NCBI RefSeq assembly: GCF_029989365.1
Contig: NZ_JAPRAQ010000002.1
Span: forward strand, 1-64,000
Source of the DNA: Bradyrhizobium sp. Arg816
GTDB lineage: Bacteria > Pseudomonadota > Alphaproteobacteria > Rhizobiales > Xanthobacteraceae
Direction of reading: 5' to 3'
DNA length: 64,000 nt
A program made the position numbers and the translations under genes. Of this stretch, positions 23,927 to 32,269 are shown piece after piece (position 1 is the stretch's first letter; every line of letters begins with the position of its first letter). The notes beneath the pieces were generated by a model. It was not told the origin of the DNA, searched no databases, and saw only the letters and a program-made list of their open reading frames with translations.

Positions 23927-25306
23927 ATGTCTGTTGTCGCCGAGTTGCTTTACTCGCGCCGCGTGCCGCAGGTTGCGGTCTTGGCGCTGATCTCGTTCAG
24001 CTTTGCAGGGTGCAGCGCCGACATGCAGTCGCGGCTGTCCCAGTCGAACTTCTCCAACCCCTTCTCGTCTGATCAGACCGGTACGGTGCAGCAGGCGCCG
24101 CCGCAGCAGCGTGAGCTGCCGCAATATTCGCGGCCGCAGACGCAGCCCGGTTATTATCAGTCGCAGCCCTTGCCGCCGCCGGCGGTCTCCGCGCCGCAAT
24201 CCTATCCCGTTGCGGGAGGTGGTGGCGTGTCCGGAGGCGGCCGTGGCGTCAGCTCCTACGCGTCCCCGGCGCAGCCGCATCTGGAGACCACGGCCACCGT
24301 GCCGCCGCGCTCGGTCGCCGCCGCCCAGGCGGCCGGCGGGACCAAAATCATCGTCGGCACCAGCGACACGCTCGACGTGCTCGCCAAGCGCTATCGCGTC
24401 ACGCCGCAGGCGATCCTCGCCGCCAACGGCTACAAGGGCCCGCGCGCGCTCTCGCCCGGTCAGCAACTGATCATCCCGCATCCGGCCACAGCCGCTGCGC
24501 CCGCACCGGCGATGGCTCCTGTCGCGGCGGCTCCCGCGATGGCGCCTGCTGCGAAGCCGGTTGCAGTCGCAGCGCCGCCGAGCACGCACTTCGTCAATCA
24601 CGGCGACACGCTCGCCAGCATTGCCCGCAAGAACCATATCTCGTCGGCTGAGCTTGCCCGTGCCAACGGCCTCGATCCGTCGGCCAAGCTCAAGCTCGGC
24701 ACCAGGCTGACCGTACCCGGTGCCAAGACCGCTGCCCTTGCGGTGCCGGTTGCCGCTGCTCCCGTCGCCGGGACGCTGCAGCCCGTTGCGGTTGCTCCCG
24801 CACCCGCCACCAAGATGGCCGCTGTCGCCGCACCGGTGCAAAGCGCGCGTCTGGCCCAGGCCACGGCCAATGTCGAAGAGAAGGCCGCGGAGGCTCCGGC
24901 GAAAGCTGCGGAGACCACCAGCGCGCTGCCGACCTTCCGCTGGCCGGTGCGCGGCAAGGTGGTCACGACCTACGGCGCCAAGACCAATGGCAAGTCCAAT
25001 GACGGCATCAATCTCGCGGTGCCCGAGGGGACGCCGGTCAAGGCGGCTGAAGACGGCGTCGTCGCCTATTCAGGCAACGAGCTCAAAGGTTACGGCAATC
25101 TGGTCCTGGTTCGGCACTCCAACGGCTACGTCACCGCATATGCCCATGCGAGTGAGCTGATGGTGAAGCGCGGCGATACCATCAAGCGCGGTCAGGTCAT
25201 TGCCAAGTCGGGTCAATCCGGGGAGGTGGCGTCGCCGCAGCTCCACTTCGAGATCCGTAAGGGATCGAGCCCGGTTGACCCGCTTCAATTCCTGAACGGG
25301 GCGTGA
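23927..25306 (+). CDS. nlpD: LysM/LytM (M23-like) lipoprotein, NlpD-type
   Basis: 459 aa. Lipoprotein signal with lipobox FAGC (Cys29); two LysM glycan-binding domains (about 139-185 and 220-265); an Ala/Pro linker; and a C-terminal M23/LytM domain (about 334-459). The first metal ligand of active M23 enzymes is replaced (SNDGINLAV where HxxxD is expected), as in E. coli NlpD, so it more likely activates cell-wall amidases than cuts peptidoglycan. LHFEIRKG near the end is the conserved second motif. Position after pcm supports the NlpD name. Confidence 0.88.
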   Translation: MSVVAELLYSRRVPQVAVLALISFSFAGCSADMQSRLSQSNFSNPFSSDQTGTVQQAPPQQRELPQYSRPQTQPGYYQSQPLPPPAVSAPQSYPVAGGGGVSGGGRGVSSYASPAQPHLETTATVPPRSVAAAQAAGGTKIIVGTSDTLDVLAKRYRVTPQAILAANGYKGPRALSPGQQLIIPHPATAAAPAPAMAPVAAAPAMAPAAKPVAVAAPPSTHFVNHGDTLASIARKNHISSAELARANGLDPSAKLKLGTRLTVPGAKTAALAVPVAAAPVAGTLQPVAVAPAPATKMAAVAAPVQSARLAQATANVEEKAAEAPAKAAETTSALPTFRWPVRGKVVTTYGAKTNGKSNDGINLAVPEGTPVKAAEDGVVAYSGNELKGYGNLVLVRHSNGYVTAYAHASELMVKRGDTIKRGQVIAKSGQSGEVASPQLHFEIRKGSSPVDPLQFLNGA

Positions 25307-25346
25307 GGCGCGGGCCCGGAGTAGGGCACGCGATCACCACGCGTAT

Positions 25347-25400
25347 GCTGTCATCGCCCGCCTTGTGCGTATTGCGCACTGGAGCGGGCGATCCAGTATT
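25347..25400. repeat. Dispersed palindromic repeat
   Basis: ATCGCCCGC (25353-25361) and GCGGGCGAT (25384-25392) are perfect arms around an inner GTGCG/CGCAC stem; flanks TGTCATCGCCC and GATCCAGTA match the family seen at 19607-19710. Confidence 0.55.
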
Positions 25401-25620
25401 TCAGAGGCGGCGGTCGCCAAGCCGAGAAACTGCCTCGAACCGTGGCGTACTGAGGCTTTTGTGTCCGGACAATCAATTATCGAAAAACAACCCCATGCAA
25501 AGTAGCCGATGGCTGCCGGTGGCATGTCCTAATGTTCTGAATCTGCTTCGGTTTCGATGGCGCAGCGGACATGGCAGCGCTTGCTGGCGACCCAGCGCCG
25601 TCGTGACCCGATCAGGACCC

Positions 25621-25634
25621 TTGATCTAGATCAA
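25621..25634. promoter_or_regulatory. FNR/FixK-type box upstream of the FGE-sulfatase genes
   Basis: TTGATCTAGATCAA is a perfect 14-bp palindrome that fits the CRP/FNR-family FixK consensus TTG(A/C)-N6-(T/G)CAA. Its centre is 73 nt before the FGE start codon. A class II arrangement (-41.5) would put transcription start near 25669, with TATCCG at 25655-25660 as the -10 element. This predicts induction at low oxygen. Inference from sequence only. Confidence 0.6.
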
Positions 25635-25700
25635 CCGGGAAGTCTGGCGTTCCGTATCCGTAGCGGCGCAGGCCAATGACGCTCGGGTCCGGAGATCGGC

Positions 25701-26696
25701 ATGAAGCTGGCTGATGCGAAATCGTCGCCTGATTCCGGACAATCGGTCCAGCATCCAGCAGGTGAGGGGATGCTGTACGTGCCAAACGGCACGTTTCGCA
25801 TGGGTTCGGATCGGCACTATCCGGAGGAAGCGCCGGTCCACCGCGTCACCGTGGATGCGTTTTGGATGGATTGCCATCCAGTGACCAACCGGCAATTCAA
25901 GGCGTTCGCCAAAGCTACCGGCCACGTCACCGTTGCCGAGATCACGCCCGATCCAAAGGACTATCCGGGAATACTCCCGCACATGGTCTATGCGGGCTCG
26001 CTGATGTTCTCTCCGCCCGCTTATCCGGTCAGTCTCCGGGACTTCAGCCAGTGGTGGACCTTCGCCAAAGGCGCGGACTGGCGGCATCCCTACGGGCCGG
26101 GCAGCGACATCCGTGGGCTGGACGATCATCCCGTCGTGCATGTGGCCTTCAGCGATGCGCTCGCCTACGCAAAATGGGCCGGCAAGGATTTGCCAACCGA
26201 GGCGGAATGGGAATTCGCGGCGCGCGGCGGGCTGGACGGCGCCGAGTTCGCATGGGGGGATGAATTTGCGCCCGGGGGCCGTCACATGGCCAACACCTGG
26301 CAGGGCGAATTTCCACGCCAGAACACCAGGGACGACGGATACGAACGGACATCGCCGGTCACCGCATTTCCGCCGAACGGTTACGGGCTGCACGATCTGA
26401 TCGGCAACGTCTGGGAATGGACGTCCGACTGGTACTCGCCTCGGCATGAGGCTGACGCAGCAAAAGCCTGCTGCATTCCAGAGAACCCGCGCGGCGGCCG
26501 CGAGGCCGATAGCTACGACCCCAGAACGACCAACGTCAAGATTCCACGCAAGGTCATCAAGGGCGGCTCGCATTTGTGCGCGCCGAACTACTGCCGACGC
26601 TACCGGCCGGCAGCGCGACACGCGGAGCCGGTCGACACATCCACGAGTCATCTTGGATTTCGGTGCATCAGGCGAGGAGCCTCTGACGCATCATAA
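25701..26696 (+). CDS. Formylglycine-generating enzyme family protein
   Basis: 331 aa, SUMF1/EgtB-fold sulfatase-modifying factor. Oxidises the active-site Cys of sulfatases to formylglycine using O2. Visible: the N-terminal GTFRMGSDRHYPEEAPVHRVTVDAF block, the central DLPTEAEWEFAARGG and GNVWEWTSDWY motifs, and the C-terminal GGSHLCAPNYCRRYRPAARH where Cys293 and Cys298 match the catalytic Cys pair of human FGE (C336/C341). No signal peptide, so it acts on nascent or unfolded sulfatase in the cytoplasm. First gene after the FixK-like box and 15 nt before a sulfatase gene; GGAG precedes ATG 25701. Confidence 0.93.
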   Translation: MKLADAKSSPDSGQSVQHPAGEGMLYVPNGTFRMGSDRHYPEEAPVHRVTVDAFWMDCHPVTNRQFKAFAKATGHVTVAEITPDPKDYPGILPHMVYAGSLMFSPPAYPVSLRDFSQWWTFAKGADWRHPYGPGSDIRGLDDHPVVHVAFSDALAYAKWAGKDLPTEAEWEFAARGGLDGAEFAWGDEFAPGGRHMANTWQGEFPRQNTRDDGYERTSPVTAFPPNGYGLHDLIGNVWEWTSDWYSPRHEADAAKACCIPENPRGGREADSYDPRTTNVKIPRKVIKGGSHLCAPNYCRRYRPAARHAEPVDTSTSHLGFRCIRRGASDAS

Positions 26697-26711
26697 CGGG
26701 AGAGCGACGTC

Positions 26712-28487
26712 ATGTTGAATTGCATATTCGATGACAAGCTGTCGACCGCAACGCCGCACAAGACGCCCAGTTGTCACAAGAGGTCCTGCGCCTCGCTGCT
26801 TGGCGCGACGATGTTGATGTCGCTGTCCGGAACAGCCAGCACTCCGGCGACCGCACAGCCGGCGCAAAAGCCCAACATCCTCTTCATCATGGGTGACGAC
26901 ATCGGCCTGTACCAGCCAAGCATCTACCATCGCGGATTGATGGTCGGGGAGACGCCCAACATCGATCGCATCGGCAATGAAGGCGCGATATTCACGCATT
27001 ATTATGCCGAGCAGAGCTGCACGGCAGGGCGGAACGCTTTCTTCACCGGCATGCACCCGTTGCGCACCGGTATGATCCCCCCACAACTGCCCGGCAGTCC
27101 GTCCTATCTGCGGCCCGGCACCCCGGCGCTCGCCAAGTTCCTGCTCGATCTCGGCTACAACACCGGCGAGTTCGGCAAGAACCATCTCGGCGATCACACC
27201 GACGCGCTGCCGACCGCGCATGGCTTCCAGGAATACTGGGGCTATCTGTATCACCTCGATGCGATGCAGGGCGTGAGCTTCCCGGACATCAACAAGTCCC
27301 CCACCCAGCAGACAGTTGCCCCGCCATGCAAGAATACGCCGATCCCCGGCATCCCGGAGGTACCGGGCGCGGTCGATCCGAAAACGTCGGTTTGCCTGAC
27401 GCCTCCGCGCAACGTCCTGTCGTGCAAGTCGGATGGCACATCCAGGACTCAGCAGTGTATCGACCAGGGCCCGCTGACGCTCGAGCGATCGAAGGGGGTC
27501 GACGAGGAAATCTCGGCCAAGGTCGTCGACTTCATCGATCGCAACGATCCGAAGACGACGGGTAAGCCGTTCTTCGTCTGGTACAACCCCGCGCGTATGC
27601 ACATCACGACCGTGCTGAATGACAAGTACGCGGCCATGGTCGGCGAGCCCGGCGGCAAGGACTGGGGCCTCAACGAGGCCGGCATGAAGCAGCTCGACGA
27701 TAACATCGGCGTGGTGCTGAAGAAGCTCCAGGACATGGGCCAGCTCGACAACACGATCGTGGTGTTCACGACCGACAACGGTGCCGAAACCATCACCTTC
27801 CCGGACGGCGGCACAACTCCGTTCAAGGGCGGCAAGCTGAGCACCTGGGAAGGCGGCATGCGCGCTCCGGCGCTCGTTCGCTGGCCCGGGGTTATCAAGC
27901 CCGGCACCATCAAGAACGACATCTTCGCTTCGCTCGACTGGCTGCCGACGTTTGTCAACATCGCGGGCGGCGCAAAGGGAGATGCGCTGAAGAAGCGCAT
28001 CGAGGCCGGCCAATATCCCGGCATCGTGAAGACGACGCTCGATGGCGTCGATCAGACCGAATACCTCTCCGGGCGTTCGGAAACGTCGGCGCGCGATACC
28101 TTCTTCTACTATTCGGGCAAGGACCCGTCGGCCGTCCGCTACAAGAACTGGAAGATCTACTTTACGATGGTCTCCGACGCGCCGCAGGGCTTCATTGCCG
28201 GCGCGCTTCCCTATCACTGGGCCCAGGTCGTCAATATCAAGCGAGACCCGTTCGAGACCTCCATTGGTTCACAATTCAAGACACTCATAGGCGTGGGCGG
28301 CTCAATCGGCAATCCTTCCACAGCCTACATCTATGACTGGAACATGCTGCCCATCGGGCAGGCGCTGTGGCTGAAGGAACTCGAGAGCTATATTGCTTAC
28401 CCACCGCTGCAGGACCCGGCGAGCTACAACCTCGATCAGGTGCTGCAACAGGTCAAGCAGGCCAAAGTTGCCGGTCGCAGCGACTAG
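26712..28487 (+). CDS. Arylsulfatase, exported (type I, Cys-type)
   Basis: 591 aa alkaline-phosphatase-fold sulfatase that hydrolyses sulfate esters. The formylglycine motif is C103-T-A-G-R. Metal-site motifs MGDDIG (N-terminal), FGKNHLGDH and TTDNGAE are present. Signal peptide region: hydrophobic stretch CASLLGATMLMSLSG (26-40) with cleavage near ATA|Q (48), preceded by an unusually long polar N-region; no clear twin-arginine. ATG 26712 is supported by GGGAGAG upstream and by alignment of this spacer with that of the next sulfatase. Likely co-transcribed with the FGE gene. Confidence 0.93.
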   Translation: MLNCIFDDKLSTATPHKTPSCHKRSCASLLGATMLMSLSGTASTPATAQPAQKPNILFIMGDDIGLYQPSIYHRGLMVGETPNIDRIGNEGAIFTHYYAEQSCTAGRNAFFTGMHPLRTGMIPPQLPGSPSYLRPGTPALAKFLLDLGYNTGEFGKNHLGDHTDALPTAHGFQEYWGYLYHLDAMQGVSFPDINKSPTQQTVAPPCKNTPIPGIPEVPGAVDPKTSVCLTPPRNVLSCKSDGTSRTQQCIDQGPLTLERSKGVDEEISAKVVDFIDRNDPKTTGKPFFVWYNPARMHITTVLNDKYAAMVGEPGGKDWGLNEAGMKQLDDNIGVVLKKLQDMGQLDNTIVVFTTDNGAETITFPDGGTTPFKGGKLSTWEGGMRAPALVRWPGVIKPGTIKNDIFASLDWLPTFVNIAGGAKGDALKKRIEAGQYPGIVKTTLDGVDQTEYLSGRSETSARDTFFYYSGKDPSAVRYKNWKIYFTMVSDAPQGFIAGALPYHWAQVVNIKRDPFETSIGSQFKTLIGVGGSIGNPSTAYIYDWNMLPIGQALWLKELESYIAYPPLQDPASYNLDQVLQQVKQAKVAGRSD

Positions 28488-28515
28488 CTGCGTGAGACGA
28501 ACGGGATCTGACGAA

Positions 28516-28543
28516 GCGGGCGCCCCACGACGGGGGCGCCCGC
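28516..28543 (+). terminator. Intercistronic hairpin between the sulfatase genes
   Basis: GCGGGCGCCCC (28516-28526) and GGGGCGCCCGC (28533-28543) form a perfect 11-bp stem with a 6-nt loop. No T-run follows, so it may stabilise or attenuate rather than end the transcript. A similar GCGGGCGC/GCGCCCGC hairpin (30403-30431) lies after the second sulfatase. Confidence 0.4.
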
Positions 28544-28570
28544 CAACGGAATTGCGAGCAAAGTGATAAC

Positions 28571-28630
28571 GGCCCGCGCGGGCCGGTCGGCACCTCCACA
28601 AGCCATTTCGGCTTCCGATGCATCAAGCGA
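28571..28630 (+). pseudogene. Remnant of an FGE gene 3' end
   Basis: From 28583 this reads PVGTSTSHFGFRCIKR, matching the C-terminus PVDTSTSHLGFRCIRR of the FGE at 25701-26696. Similarity continues through the spacer up to the next ATG (GCATCA-AACGG-AGAG-ACGTCATG in both). The rest of the FGE copy is gone. It shows that the second sulfatase arose with, or was recombined from, an FGE-sulfatase unit. Confidence 0.8.
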
Positions 28631-28667
28631 ACAGAACAAATTGCATCACAACGGAGAGGAGCACGTC

Positions 28668-30377
28668 ATGAGTAACAAGCTTCCGCCAGAAGAATCCCAC
28701 GACGTTGCGCCGCAATCGGGCGGCGGAATGAAACGCCGCGATCTGCTGCTGAGCGGCAGTTCGCTTGTGGCCGCTTCGGCACTCACCGCGGTCGGGCTAA
28801 CAAGTTCTGCGCATGCGCAGCAACCAACGCCGTCACCCGCGCCAGCCGGGCAGCGGCCGAACATCGTCTTCATCATGGGTGACGACATCGGCATGTGGAA
28901 TATCGGCGCTTATCACCGCGGCCTGATGGCCGGCCGGACGCCCAATCTCGACAAGCTCGCCGCCGAAGGCATGCTGTTCACCGATTACTATGCCGAGGCG
29001 AGCTGCACGGCAGGTCGCGCCAACTTCATCACCGGTGAATTGCCAATCCGCACCGGCATGACCACTGTCGGCCAGGCCGGCGCTGCCATCGGCATACCCG
29101 CGCAGGCCGTGACCATCGCCACGGCGTTGAAAGGAATGGGTTACGCCACCGGCCAGTTTGGCAAGAATCACCTCGGCGACAAGAATGAATTCTTGCCGAC
29201 AGTGCACGGCTTCGACGAGTTCTTCGGTTACCTCTATCACCTCGACGCAATGGAAGACCCCGCGCACCCAAACTACCCGCAGGATCTGCTGAACGTCGTC
29301 GGTCCACGCAACATGCTTCATACTTATGCGACCAACGTGGATGACCCCACGGTGGACCCGCGTTGGGGCAAGGTTGGAAAGCAGAAGATCGAGGATGCTG
29401 GAACGCTCTATCCCAAGCGAATGGAGACCGTGGACGACGAAATCCGCGACCTGGCGATCAAGTTCATCGAGAAGGCCAAGGCCGACAACAAGCCGTTCTT
29501 CCTGTGGCTCAATCCAACCCGGATGCACATCGTAACGCATCTTTCACCAAAGTACGAGGCGACGCGCAACTCCAAGAACGGCTGGTCGATACATGAAGCC
29601 GGCATGGCGCAGCTCGATGACGACATCGGCATCGTGATGCAGAAGCTCAAGGATATGGGTGTGGACGACAACACCATCGTGGTCTTCACCACCGACAACG
29701 GCACCGAGGTCTTCACGTGGCCCGACGGCGGACAGACGCCTTTTGCGCAGAGCAAAGGCACCGTCATGGAAGGTGGCTTCCGCGTCCCCTGCATGATCCG
29801 TTGGCCGGGCAAGGTGCCGGCCGGCAAGGTCGAGAACGGCATCATTTCCGGCCTGGACTGGTTTCCCACCTTCCTGGCGGCGGCCGGCAACCCGAACATT
29901 GCAGAGGAGCTGAAGAAGGGCAAACAGATCGGTGACACGACCTATAAGTGCTATCTGGACGGCTATAACCAGATCGACATGATTACCGGCAAGGGGCCGT
30001 CGAACCGGCACGAAATCTTTTACTTCGGAGAGAGCGAACTCGGGGCCGTGCGCATCGACGACTTCAAGTATCGTTTCATCGACCAGCCTAGAGGCTGGCT
30101 CGGTGAAAAAACCAAGGCTGACGTGCCCTACTTGACGAACCTTCGCCTCGATCCGTTCGAGCGCACGGGCTGGCCCGATAGCGGGTCGAAAGAGGGCGCG
30201 CAGCAATACTTCGACTGGTTCAAATACGAATTCTGGCGCTTTGTGTTTGTTCAGCAGCAGGTCGAAAAGCTGGCGATGACAGCGATCGAGTTTCCGCCGA
30301 TGCAAAAGGGCGCGAGCTTCAACCTCGATGCCGTGAAGGCGAAAATCGAGGCGGCCCGGGCGGCAGTGAGTAGGTAG
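28668..30377 (+). CDS. Arylsulfatase with twin-arginine signal
   Basis: 569 aa paralogue of the upstream sulfatase. N-terminal KRRDLLLSGSSLVAASALTA (22-41) is a twin-arginine-type signal (R23-R24) with cleavage near AHA|Q (50), so export is probably by TatABC after folding. The formylglycine motif is C113-T-A-G-R; MGDDIGMW, FGKNHLGDKNEFLPTVHGF and TTDNGTE mark the metal and substrate site. ATG 28668 follows GGAGAGGAG and aligns with the start of the first sulfatase; Met21 is possible. The FGE at 25701 would supply formylglycine in the cytoplasm before export. Confidence 0.93.
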   Translation: MSNKLPPEESHDVAPQSGGGMKRRDLLLSGSSLVAASALTAVGLTSSAHAQQPTPSPAPAGQRPNIVFIMGDDIGMWNIGAYHRGLMAGRTPNLDKLAAEGMLFTDYYAEASCTAGRANFITGELPIRTGMTTVGQAGAAIGIPAQAVTIATALKGMGYATGQFGKNHLGDKNEFLPTVHGFDEFFGYLYHLDAMEDPAHPNYPQDLLNVVGPRNMLHTYATNVDDPTVDPRWGKVGKQKIEDAGTLYPKRMETVDDEIRDLAIKFIEKAKADNKPFFLWLNPTRMHIVTHLSPKYEATRNSKNGWSIHEAGMAQLDDDIGIVMQKLKDMGVDDNTIVVFTTDNGTEVFTWPDGGQTPFAQSKGTVMEGGFRVPCMIRWPGKVPAGKVENGIISGLDWFPTFLAAAGNPNIAEELKKGKQIGDTTYKCYLDGYNQIDMITGKGPSNRHEIFYFGESELGAVRIDDFKYRFIDQPRGWLGEKTKADVPYLTNLRLDPFERTGWPDSGSKEGAQQYFDWFKYEFWRFVFVQQQVEKLAMTAIEFPPMQKGASFNLDAVKAKIEAARAAVSR

Positions 30378-30402
30378 TCGCCAGGGCTTCGACTGATTTA
30401 TG

Positions 30403-30431
30403 GCGGGCGCGCCGAATTTCCGTGCGCCCGC
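30403..30431 (+). terminator. Intercistronic hairpin after the second sulfatase
   Basis: GCGGGCGC (30403-30410) and GCGCCCGC (30424-30431) form an 8-bp stem with a 13-nt loop, 24 nt before the HAD gene. No T-run. Its arms resemble those of the hairpin between the sulfatases. Confidence 0.3.
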
Positions 30432-30454
30432 TGGGCAATGGAAAGGCGTCGACC

Positions 30455-31492
30455 ATGAAGCCGATCATCCGTTTACCTGCTATCGATCGCCGCGTTCTTC
30501 TCTCGTCCTTGGCGATGCTTCCGGTACTGTCCGTTTCACTCCGTTCCAACTCCGCAATGGCACAAGCGCAGAGCGATCCACTGCCATCATGGAACGACGG
30601 CGCGACCAAGGCCTCGATCCTCGACTTTGTTGCGCGCGTCACGACGCAAGATGGGCCTTATTTCGTCCCGGTCGACCAGCGCATCGCGACCTTCGACAAT
30701 GACGGCACGCTCTGGATCGAGCAGCCAATGTACATACAGCTGGCCTTCGCACTGGACCGCGTGAAGGCCATGGCGCCCATGCATCCGGAATGGAAGACCA
30801 AGCAGCCATTCGCAGCGGTGCTCGACAACGATCTGAAGGCGCTGGCGGCTTCCGGCGAAAAGGGATTGGTCGAGATCATCGCGGTAACTCATGCCGACAT
30901 GACGACGGCAGAGTTCGAAAAAATCGTAACCGACTGGCTCGCGACCGCGCGCGACCGTCGCTTCAAGCGCCCTTATACTGAGCTCGTCTATCAGCCGATG
31001 CTCGAACTGCTCGCCTATCTCCGGGCCAGCGGCTTCAAGACCTTCATTGTGTCAGGCGGCGGCATCGAATTCATGCGGCCCTGGACCGAGCGGATCTACG
31101 GAATACCGCCGGAGCAGGTTGTCGGATCGTCGATCAAGACCCGATTTGAGATAAAGGACGGTGCGCCAACGCTCTTCCGGCTGCCCGATGTCAATTTTAT
31201 CGACGACAAGGCCGGCAAGCCAATCGGGATCAATAGCCACATTGGCCGGCGTCCGATTGCCGCCTTCGGCAACTCCGACGGCGATCTCGAAATGCTGCAA
31301 TGGGCGACGCTCGGCGCCAGTGGCGCGCGGTTCGGCCTGATCGTCCACCATACCGATGCGGAGCGTGAATATGCCTACGATCGCGACTCGCATTTCGGGA
31401 AACTCGACGTCGCGCTCGACGCCGCGGCCGTCAACAAGTGGGCGGTGGTCGACATGAAGAAGGACTGGAAGCGCATCTTTGCCTTCGACTGA
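30455..31492 (+). CDS. Exported HAD-superfamily phosphatase
   Basis: 345 aa. N-terminal AIDRRVLLSSLAMLPVLSVS with R12-R13 and cleavage near AMA|Q looks like a twin-arginine or Sec signal. HAD motif I is FDNDGTLW (nucleophile D81, D83), motif II is FIVSGGG, and motif IV GNSDGDLEML. Resembles phosphoserine-phosphatase-like HAD enzymes; substrate unknown. Co-oriented with the sulfatases, so possibly part of the same scavenging set for sulfate or phosphate esters. ATG 30455 chosen with GGAAAGG upstream; an earlier in-frame start (30422) would mask the signal. Confidence 0.85.
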   Translation: MKPIIRLPAIDRRVLLSSLAMLPVLSVSLRSNSAMAQAQSDPLPSWNDGATKASILDFVARVTTQDGPYFVPVDQRIATFDNDGTLWIEQPMYIQLAFALDRVKAMAPMHPEWKTKQPFAAVLDNDLKALAASGEKGLVEIIAVTHADMTTAEFEKIVTDWLATARDRRFKRPYTELVYQPMLELLAYLRASGFKTFIVSGGGIEFMRPWTERIYGIPPEQVVGSSIKTRFEIKDGAPTLFRLPDVNFIDDKAGKPIGINSHIGRRPIAAFGNSDGDLEMLQWATLGASGARFGLIVHHTDAEREYAYDRDSHFGKLDVALDAAAVNKWAVVDMKKDWKRIFAFD

Positions 31493-31514
31493 CATCCTCT
31501 AAGGACCCATAAGA

Positions 31515-31577
31515 GCCATCTGGACGGCCATAGCCGGTGGACATCGTTACCGGCAAGAGGCACCCAACGCATTCCGG
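31515..31577 (+). pseudogene. Short remnant of a sulfatase gene
   Basis: The DNA matches codons of the second sulfatase around its LDGYNQIDMITGK segment (29945-30000): here it reads LDGHSR and, after a one-base deletion, VDIVTGK. It is only ~60 bp, immediately after the HAD gene, and cannot be functional. Together with the FGE remnant it suggests a formerly longer tandem array. Confidence 0.6.
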
Positions 31578-31630
31578 ACTTGCACACCGACCATCTTCGT
31601 CGCCTGCGGCACTGCGCTCACAAATGCAGG

Positions 31631-31987
31631 CTATTCGTTTTGATCGAAGTTGGGTTTGCCCGTGAACGAGGTTCGGTTAGCCGACGCAAATGCCCCTGTG
31701 CGGACACCGGGGCGCAAGTCTGATTGTGCGTCAGCCTGGAAGTTATAGCCCGCCTGCACGCCTCCAACGAATTCGGTCAGGCCGCCATACAGATTGTTGC
31801 CGGGAAGGTTCAGGCTGCCGTTGGACCATCCCCCACCGAAGTTGGCGCCAACATAAAACTCTCCCCAATTATACAATGGTGCCGCGATTGGTGCTTTGTA
31901 TATTGGAGCTTTGACAGGCAGGTCGGACGCAAGAGCGGGTCCGCTCAACAATCCTGCGGCGATGCAAATGAGGAAGACTTTCTGCAC
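31631..31987 (-). pseudogene. Truncated outer-membrane beta-barrel protein (Omp25/RopB-like)
   Basis: From GTG 31987 (GAGGAGG upstream) a signal peptide (VQKVFLICIAAGLLSGPALA) leads into DLPVKAPIYKAPIAAPLYNW, then GEFYVGANFGGGWSNGSL and FVGGVQAGYNFQAD, the first strands of the Bradyrhizobium 8-stranded surface-barrel family. Homologues are usually about 200-280 aa; here similarity ends after ~87 residues and the reading frame stops at 118. The remaining strands are missing, so it is probably a broken gene, although a short secreted peptide could still be made. Confidence 0.65.
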
Positions 31988-32269
31988 CGTCGCCTCCTCA
32001 AGGTCGGCCACAACTCGCAAACATATGACCAAGAAGGTCTCTGACCAATCGACTTGTTTGATCTGCATCAAGCCGAGCTTGCTTTGTCGATGCAGGTGAC
32101 ATTTCGGCAACAACGAAATTGAGTCTTCGTGCCGCTTCGTGTTCTTTGAGTGAACATTGTTGTCTGACTTTGCGATCGTCTCCTGTTTGAGAACGCGCTG
32201 GGCGATCTGGCAGTGATGCATCGGAATTTGTGCCTATGGCGGTCATCAGCACCGCAATAGAAGTTTCGG
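31988..32269. other. Gap between gene remnants
   Basis: 282 bp, AT-richer than the window average. The ORFs extending through it are fusions of unrelated frames. No feature recognised besides the upstream region of the truncated barrel gene. Confidence 0.3.

Follow-up and report, generated by a model that had tools for sequence, protein, structure and literature searches.

A remnant of an FGE gene in front of the second sulfatase gene at a Bradyrhizobium locus

The locus and its FGE remnant

The window, which is the whole 64,000-nucleotide stretch of Bradyrhizobium sp. Arg816 DNA analysed here, contains a gene for an intact FGE homologue (FGE1) followed by genes for a first sulfatase (S1), a second sulfatase (S2) and a hydrolase of the HAD family (Table 1). 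FGE converts the active-site cysteine of a sulfatase to formylglycine. The ATG of S2 lies 180 nt beyond the stop codon of S1, and within this gap we note a G+C-rich hairpin, which was not detected by a terminator scan, and a short stretch that resembles the end of an FGE gene. S2 has both marks of a type I sulfatase, a PF00884 domain and a Cys-x-Pro/Ala-x-Arg motif (SCTAGR), and it opens with a leader (MKRRDLLL) that we take to be Tat-like.

Table 1. Features of the FGE1–S1–S2 locus (positions in the window)
Feature	Position	Strand	Basis
FGE1, intact FGE homologue, 331 aa	25701..26696	+	PF03781, 281.6 bits (cut-off 23.3); human FGE by phmmer, 1e-77
S1, first sulfatase, 591 aa	26712..28487	+	PF00884, 139.1 bits
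G+C-rich hairpin 3′ of S1, terminator-like, without T run	28516..28543	+	Sequence; stem retained at nearly all of 12 loci
FGE remnant, 17 codons, GPVGTSTSHFGFRCIKR	28580..28630	+	Alignment with FGE 3′ ends
Invariant core, TCCGATGCATCAAGC	28614..28628	+	Identical in 12 of 12 scar loci
Spacer from Cys codon to ATG, 46 nt; S1-type start, last 20 nt S2-type	28622..28667	+	Alignments with S1- and S2-linked spacers
Shine–Dalgarno-like, GGAGAGGAG	28653..28661	+	Sequence; mostly conserved across scar loci
S2 leader coding region, MKRRDLLL, part of the constant module	28668..28787	+	Identity comparison of copies
S2, second sulfatase, 569 aa, SCTAGR motif, ATG at 28668	28668..30377	+	PF00884, 182.8 bits; motif from translation
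HAD-family hydrolase, usual downstream neighbour	30455..31492	+	PF12710, 46 bits; synteny at most loci compared

A reading made earlier from the letters of this DNA (the sequence-only reading) had proposed that positions 28571–28667 mirror the 3′ end of the intact FGE gene together with its spacer before the first sulfatase, and had suggested a pairwise alignment as a check. Local alignment of positions 26560–26720 with 28540–28680 gave a score of 80 and extended through the FGE codons and the spacer up to the ATG, a similarity far above chance that bears the proposal out. The scores of 2000 dinucleotide shuffles had a mean of 19.6 (s.d. 3.2) and never exceeded 37; elsewhere in the window, the best unrelated match reached 38. 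Chance similarity, which the shortness of the stretch might favour, is effectively ruled out by this shuffle test.

The coding part of the stretch, taken as far as the cysteine of GFRC, was also compared with FGE genes from other loci. Against 40 S1-linked FGEs the mean score was 49 and the best 61, the top of 60 shuffles being 24; against 26 S2-linked FGEs the corresponding values were 48, 61 and 25. The scores are equal, and the coding part does not tell the two kinds of FGE apart. The homology to FGE coding sequence is significant and in register with the coding 3′ ends (GPVGTSTSHFGFRC) of these 40 S1-linked and 26 S2-linked genes. The bulk of the gene, its catalytic part included, is missing: 17 codons are left, and the open reading frame extends over only some 60 codons, which marks a remnant and not a gene. 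No intact counterpart was found at this locus in the relatives examined, but intact FGEs are present directly before S2 relatives elsewhere. Positions 28580–28667, referred to below as the scar, are the remnant of an FGE gene. As in known pairs of FGE (SUMF1, PF03781) and a type I sulfatase, intact FGE1 stands before S1 and intact FGEs stand directly before S2 relatives; the locus differs in that S2 is preceded by 17 FGE codons and a spacer, and in that the intact proteins have proline at the position of human Cys341.

The spacer and the distribution of the scar in the genus

The scar spacer (46 nt) has the length usual in S1-linked units (44–48 nt in 39 of 40) and not that of S2-linked units (19–25 nt in 24 of 26). 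Twelve loci that apparently repeat other loci were excluded from the unit alignments, the spacer tests and the tree described below. Global alignment indicated that the window spacer is homologous to 39 S1-linked spacers (z 5.4–5.9), and the same test over the scar loci gave z values of 3.9–7.4 for eight loci and 3.7–7.1 for all 12. When the window spacer was aligned locally and on its own, it scored 27 against S1-linked spacers, which did not exceed the shuffles (28), and 30 against S2-linked spacers, which did (22). This discord between the local and global alignments arises because the two halves of the spacer differ in type. Over its first 26 nt the window spacer resembles S1-linked spacers (z 4.7), whereas the last 20 nt score better with S2-linked spacers (mean 11.8, z 5.3) than with S1-linked ones (5.8, z 2.6). 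Mean scores place the last 20 nt nearer the S2-linked spacers in ten of the 12 scar loci; in L229 and L232 they favour the S1 side. In 31 of 40 S1-linked units, 15–17 nt separate the FGE stop from the sulfatase; of 29 S2-linked units, 16 have an overlap of 4 nt between the two genes and nine a longer one, three are unscored and one is spaced. As judged from these alignments, the scar consists of the tail of an S1-type FGE and, from a point within the spacer, a start of the S2 type: the spacer is S1-type in length and in its first half and S2-type at its end, from which it would follow that S2 became attached to the tail of an S1-type FGE.

We searched 265 Bradyrhizobium genomes with positions 28560–28760 and scored the three best candidates in each. 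Some match was present in 55 genomes, and a match across the FGE-like part in at least 12 (at least 14 copies): G000, which is the genome of the window, G007, G177 (two), G198 (two), G122, G204, G031, G209, G024, G229, G113 and G001. The remnant stands behind S1 in 12 genomes, in three of which S2 is broken or missing, the scar being retained 5′ of a broken S2 in G229 and before an S2 reduced to its ends in G113 and G001. Among the best 80 named loci, a scar lies behind S1 in L085 (B. barranii subsp. apii, two copies), L087 (B. lablabi) and L104 (B. liaoningense). From the hairpin into the scar, an alignment of these 12 scar-bearing genomes' loci is continuous, small gaps aside, and none of them holds a longer FGE remnant. 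A plain locus of FGE1, S1 and the HAD gene, with neither scar nor S2, was found in ten loci. G187 has lost the FGE part and keeps the ribosome-binding site with 31 S2 codons, and in G053 the match is to the spacer part only, which lies between a further gene, read by eye, and S2. G177 and G198 each carry two tandem S2 genes with a scar apiece, the second scar following the hairpin of the first S2.

The segment of about 40 nt between the hairpin and the scar has strong matches only at scar loci and their remnants, in addition to weak short matches. It matched no FGE 5′ region, and so gives no sign of where the opposite end of a deleted FGE would lie. A plasmid collection gave zero matches to positions 28488–28760, and a search of the open-licence literature by title and abstract returned nothing concerning this locus.

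Loss of FGE beside S2 and the origin of the scar

The state of the DNA upstream of S2 was mapped on a tree of 118 S2 homologues with at least 60% identity. This is a quick tree with SH-aLRT support only, and it omits rows below 60% identity and the one-residue S2 row L143. An intact FGE was found in 29 cases, a fragment in 15, a scar of the window type in 11 and none in 58, where 'none' denotes no FGE match within 1.7 kb; the other five have too little upstream DNA to be judged and were left unlabelled. The S2 of the window is nested in successive branches with intact-FGE members, namely L060, L059 with L062, L054, L053 and L051 (support 80–97). The fragment state changes 11 times on the tree, and at least ten of these changes are forced by well supported branches. 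In L084 both ends of the FGE are kept and the middle is gone, in L057 and L092 the FGEs before S2 have internal gaps, and in L058, L081 and L236 54–82 FGE codons are left. As read from the tree and these gene structures, FGE genes have indeed been lost, and repeatedly, next to sulfatases that were retained. L050, which has an S2-type FGE tail, is placed among S2 bodies of the window type, so that bodies and scars are not matched one to one. In L078 an S1-type FGE tail of 44 codons, with a leader that is S1-like by eye, is joined to an S2 body.

The remnants in L045, L050, L061, L067, L068 and L286 start near the same codons, and the region before ATGAG stays similar. These six longer remnants include a stop in one, a frameshift in one, loss of a codon in one and GFWC in one, on the strength of which the idea of a conserved mini-FGE was dropped, protein-level selection being judged by eye. 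On contig 39 of the genome of the window (G000:C39:35468-37325) an FGE tail of about 41–44 codons, with another breakpoint, precedes an S2 paralogue (88% identical).

Truncated gene remnants can persist because they hold the ribosome-binding site of the next gene. The mostly overlapping stop and start codons of S2-linked units place the start signals within the last codons of the FGE, and this would explain the survival of at least the tail in such units; remnants of the contig-39 type likewise keep the start signals. The scar of the window differs from these cases in that its spacer is at first of the S1 type and in that its last 60 nt or so are part of a leader module common to three sulfatase bodies.

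The sequence-only reading had gone on to propose an ancestor with two FGE–sulfatase units, one FGE of which was deleted. Part of this stands, as the FGE 3′ end is real, S2 relatives have an intact FGE and half-deleted forms recur. What was found nowhere at this locus is a pair of intact FGEs: a second intact FGE is absent from it both in the genome of the window and in the 18 genomes that were scanned for PF03781, all 11 other scar-bearing genomes among them. Two full units, which the same reading had suggested seeking in relatives, do exist elsewhere, in that L318 has two intact FGE–sulfatase units about 10 kb apart. In L317 two FGEs lie 4.2 kb apart and an ORF separates the second from its sulfatase. 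An FGE stands between S1 and S2 at the other loci L051, L069 and L070, the last of which has a further sulfatase between.

The explanation that we favour, at a probability of roughly 60%, is that the 5′ leader region of S2 holds the 3′ end of an S1-type FGE and part of its spacer as a dead remnant, and that S2 was joined to it in the spacer, preferably by a junction. The hybrid spacer calls for a recombination junction on either view, and a complete second FGE would be an extra step; with no such FGE found at the locus and no FGE 5′ end, the junction is given more weight. Behind the hairpin of S1, an S2 gene would have become attached to the tail of an S1-type FGE at a point in the spacer, and this hairpin may be the homology at which units of scar and S2 were added. 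The joining would predate the split of the sampled scar-bearing genomes, or would have spread among them by transfer. The route that we prefer would be a recombination or partial-duplication junction that never involved a complete second FGE. A close alternative would be a full FGE that was cut down later, and it is possible that the tail was once part of a complete second FGE at this place. The ribosome-binding-site region of S2 presumably could not be lost.

Several points count against the favoured explanation. The intact FGE directly upstream of the close relatives of S2 makes loss in place simple, spacers can change length, the coding part fits both kinds of FGE, the last 20 nt of L229 and L232 are nearer the S1 side, and L050 breaks the match between bodies and scars; the general variability of the +120 segment and the low identity of some copies over −120 to −61, described below, also weigh against it. 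An arrangement FGE1–S1–FGE′–S2 with two complete FGEs, in which a deletion left only the last codons of FGE′, is a serious competitor, although we hold it to be the less probable course. It would agree with the intact FGE that the nearest outgroups carry before S2, the FGE between S1 and S2 in L051, L069 and L070, the half-deleted FGEs 5′ of S2 in L084, L057 and L092, and the two units of L318 within about 10 kb. It has to contend with the lack of two intact FGEs at the locus in the window genome and the 18 scanned, and of any longer remnant in the 12 scar loci. Furthermore, the S1-type tail and first half of the spacer would require FGE′ to have been a second S1-type copy that was already joined to S2.

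Conservation of the scar and the sulfatases behind it

The 15 nt core TCCGATGCATCAAGC is invariant in all 12 loci, three with a destroyed S2 among them. The proportion of invariant four-fold sites is 19–33% (FGE1, 37 of 111; S1, 38 of 180; HAD gene, 15 of 79 in 11 loci). Pairs of scars average 82% identity, compared with 72, 74 and 66% at the four-fold sites of FGE1, S1 and the HAD gene, and scar identity is the higher in 47 of 66, 60 of 66 and 55 of 55 pairs, respectively. Invariant coding runs in the same loci reach 18 nt in FGE1 and 15 nt in S1, and where S2 is complete (nine loci), it is the hairpin and not the core that gives the longest invariant intergenic run. Since FGE1 and S1 have comparable invariant runs, and since homogenisation of the scars by recombination would look alike, this conservation is only a hint of selection.

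A conserved regulatory sequence common to the two sulfatase genes, and not a relic of FGE, would account for a core that is invariant in 12 of 12 loci when four-fold sites are not, but we regard it as very improbable. The scar aligns in register with the 40 S1-linked and 26 S2-linked FGE 3′ ends, Rfam gave 0 matches at gathering score in 24000–32000, no sigma-70-type promoter-like site was found in 28400–28800, and the RNA fold is weak (z −1.2; 24 of 200 shuffles fold as well). In the alignment fold, changes on both sides occur in two of 36 pairs, with a covariation term of +0.56. The 22 nt core pattern has a single occurrence in the genome of the window within three mismatches.

Several scar loci have other sulfatases behind the scar, here termed S2x (the S2 genes of G007, G122 and G209, at L225, L227 and L229, respectively) and S2a (the first S2 genes of G177 and G198). 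A hairpin like that at 28516–28543 is also found 3′ of S2a in G177 and is followed by the second scar. In L225, L227 and L229 a sulfatase body of 64% identity follows a scar and leader of the window type, the border being near codon 40. Compared with the window, S2a and S2x are 83–98% identical over the last 60 nt before the ATG and 90–100% identical over the first 120 nt of S2, and after +120 the identity drops to 67–72%. From −120 to −61 the G007 copy is 100% identical to the window, whereas S2a and the L227 and L229 copies are only 66–70% identical. The +120 segment is generally variable, being 70% identical also in L049/G024, the body of which is otherwise window-like, and the scar taken as a whole is variable too. 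The contrast with the C6-type sulfatase is clear: the S2a body goes with it, whereas the leader of S2a resembles that of the window, from which the C6-type leader departs (48 and 80%). S2x, S2a and the S2b of the window fall in three parts of the tree.

On these identities, the last 60 nt or so and the S2 leader region (about 180 nt in all) are constant before three different sulfatase bodies. The mosaic pattern suggests that, once S2 had been joined to the FGE tail, this segment would have stayed constant while the bodies behind it were exchanged or added by recombination, and the locus would then mark a site of sulfatase gene exchange in these bacteria. A bolder proposal is that the FGE tail was taken over as a selected 5′ element, the scar end, Shine–Dalgarno sequence and Tat leader forming a fixed docking module that supplies swapped-in sulfatase bodies with signals for expression and export and with homology for recombination, one FGE serving all. 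We consider this rather unlikely; if it were true, the locus would gain sulfatases of new kinds through the exchange of cassettes, with no need for additional maturases.

The active-site cysteine of S2 would presumably be oxidised in trans by FGE1 or by a paralogue (C2:350361, C6:8068). A passage of PMC11500405 proposes that the acesulfame sulfatase of Shinella is matured by an FGE on another replicon; that enzyme, as described there, resembles S2 in having no adjacent FGE of its own and differs in that an FGE sits two genes upstream in the window. The scar illustrates how FGE–sulfatase units can lose the maturase yet keep the client, one FGE serving several sulfatases, and it is a warning for annotation that sulfatases with no neighbouring FGE may once have had one.

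The PF03781 score of FGE1 is far above the cut-off, and the protein lacks the second copper cysteine: it has YCRRYRP where human FGE has YCYRYRC, the two human cysteines being 336 and 341 in the numbering given in PMC4505483. The motif C-x-R-Y-R-P ends in proline in 43 of 43 S1-linked and 33 of 34 S2-linked intact rows (duplicates included), the remaining row being without the motif, and in cysteine in none. For the studied FGEs, a section of PMC12123546 describes copper bound by a two-cysteine site; given proline at the Cys341 position, the chemistry of the present homologues is only putative. On the client side, SCTAGR is present in 184 of 195 sulfatase rows, and the other 11 have no match in the first 170 residues. 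The genome of the window also encodes sulfatase-like proteins with CSPTR and CGPSR on C11 and C22 (L309 and L311), and no C341-type FGE was seen among those of its FGE loci that were compared. A one-cysteine FGE with CXAXR clients is a separate lead.
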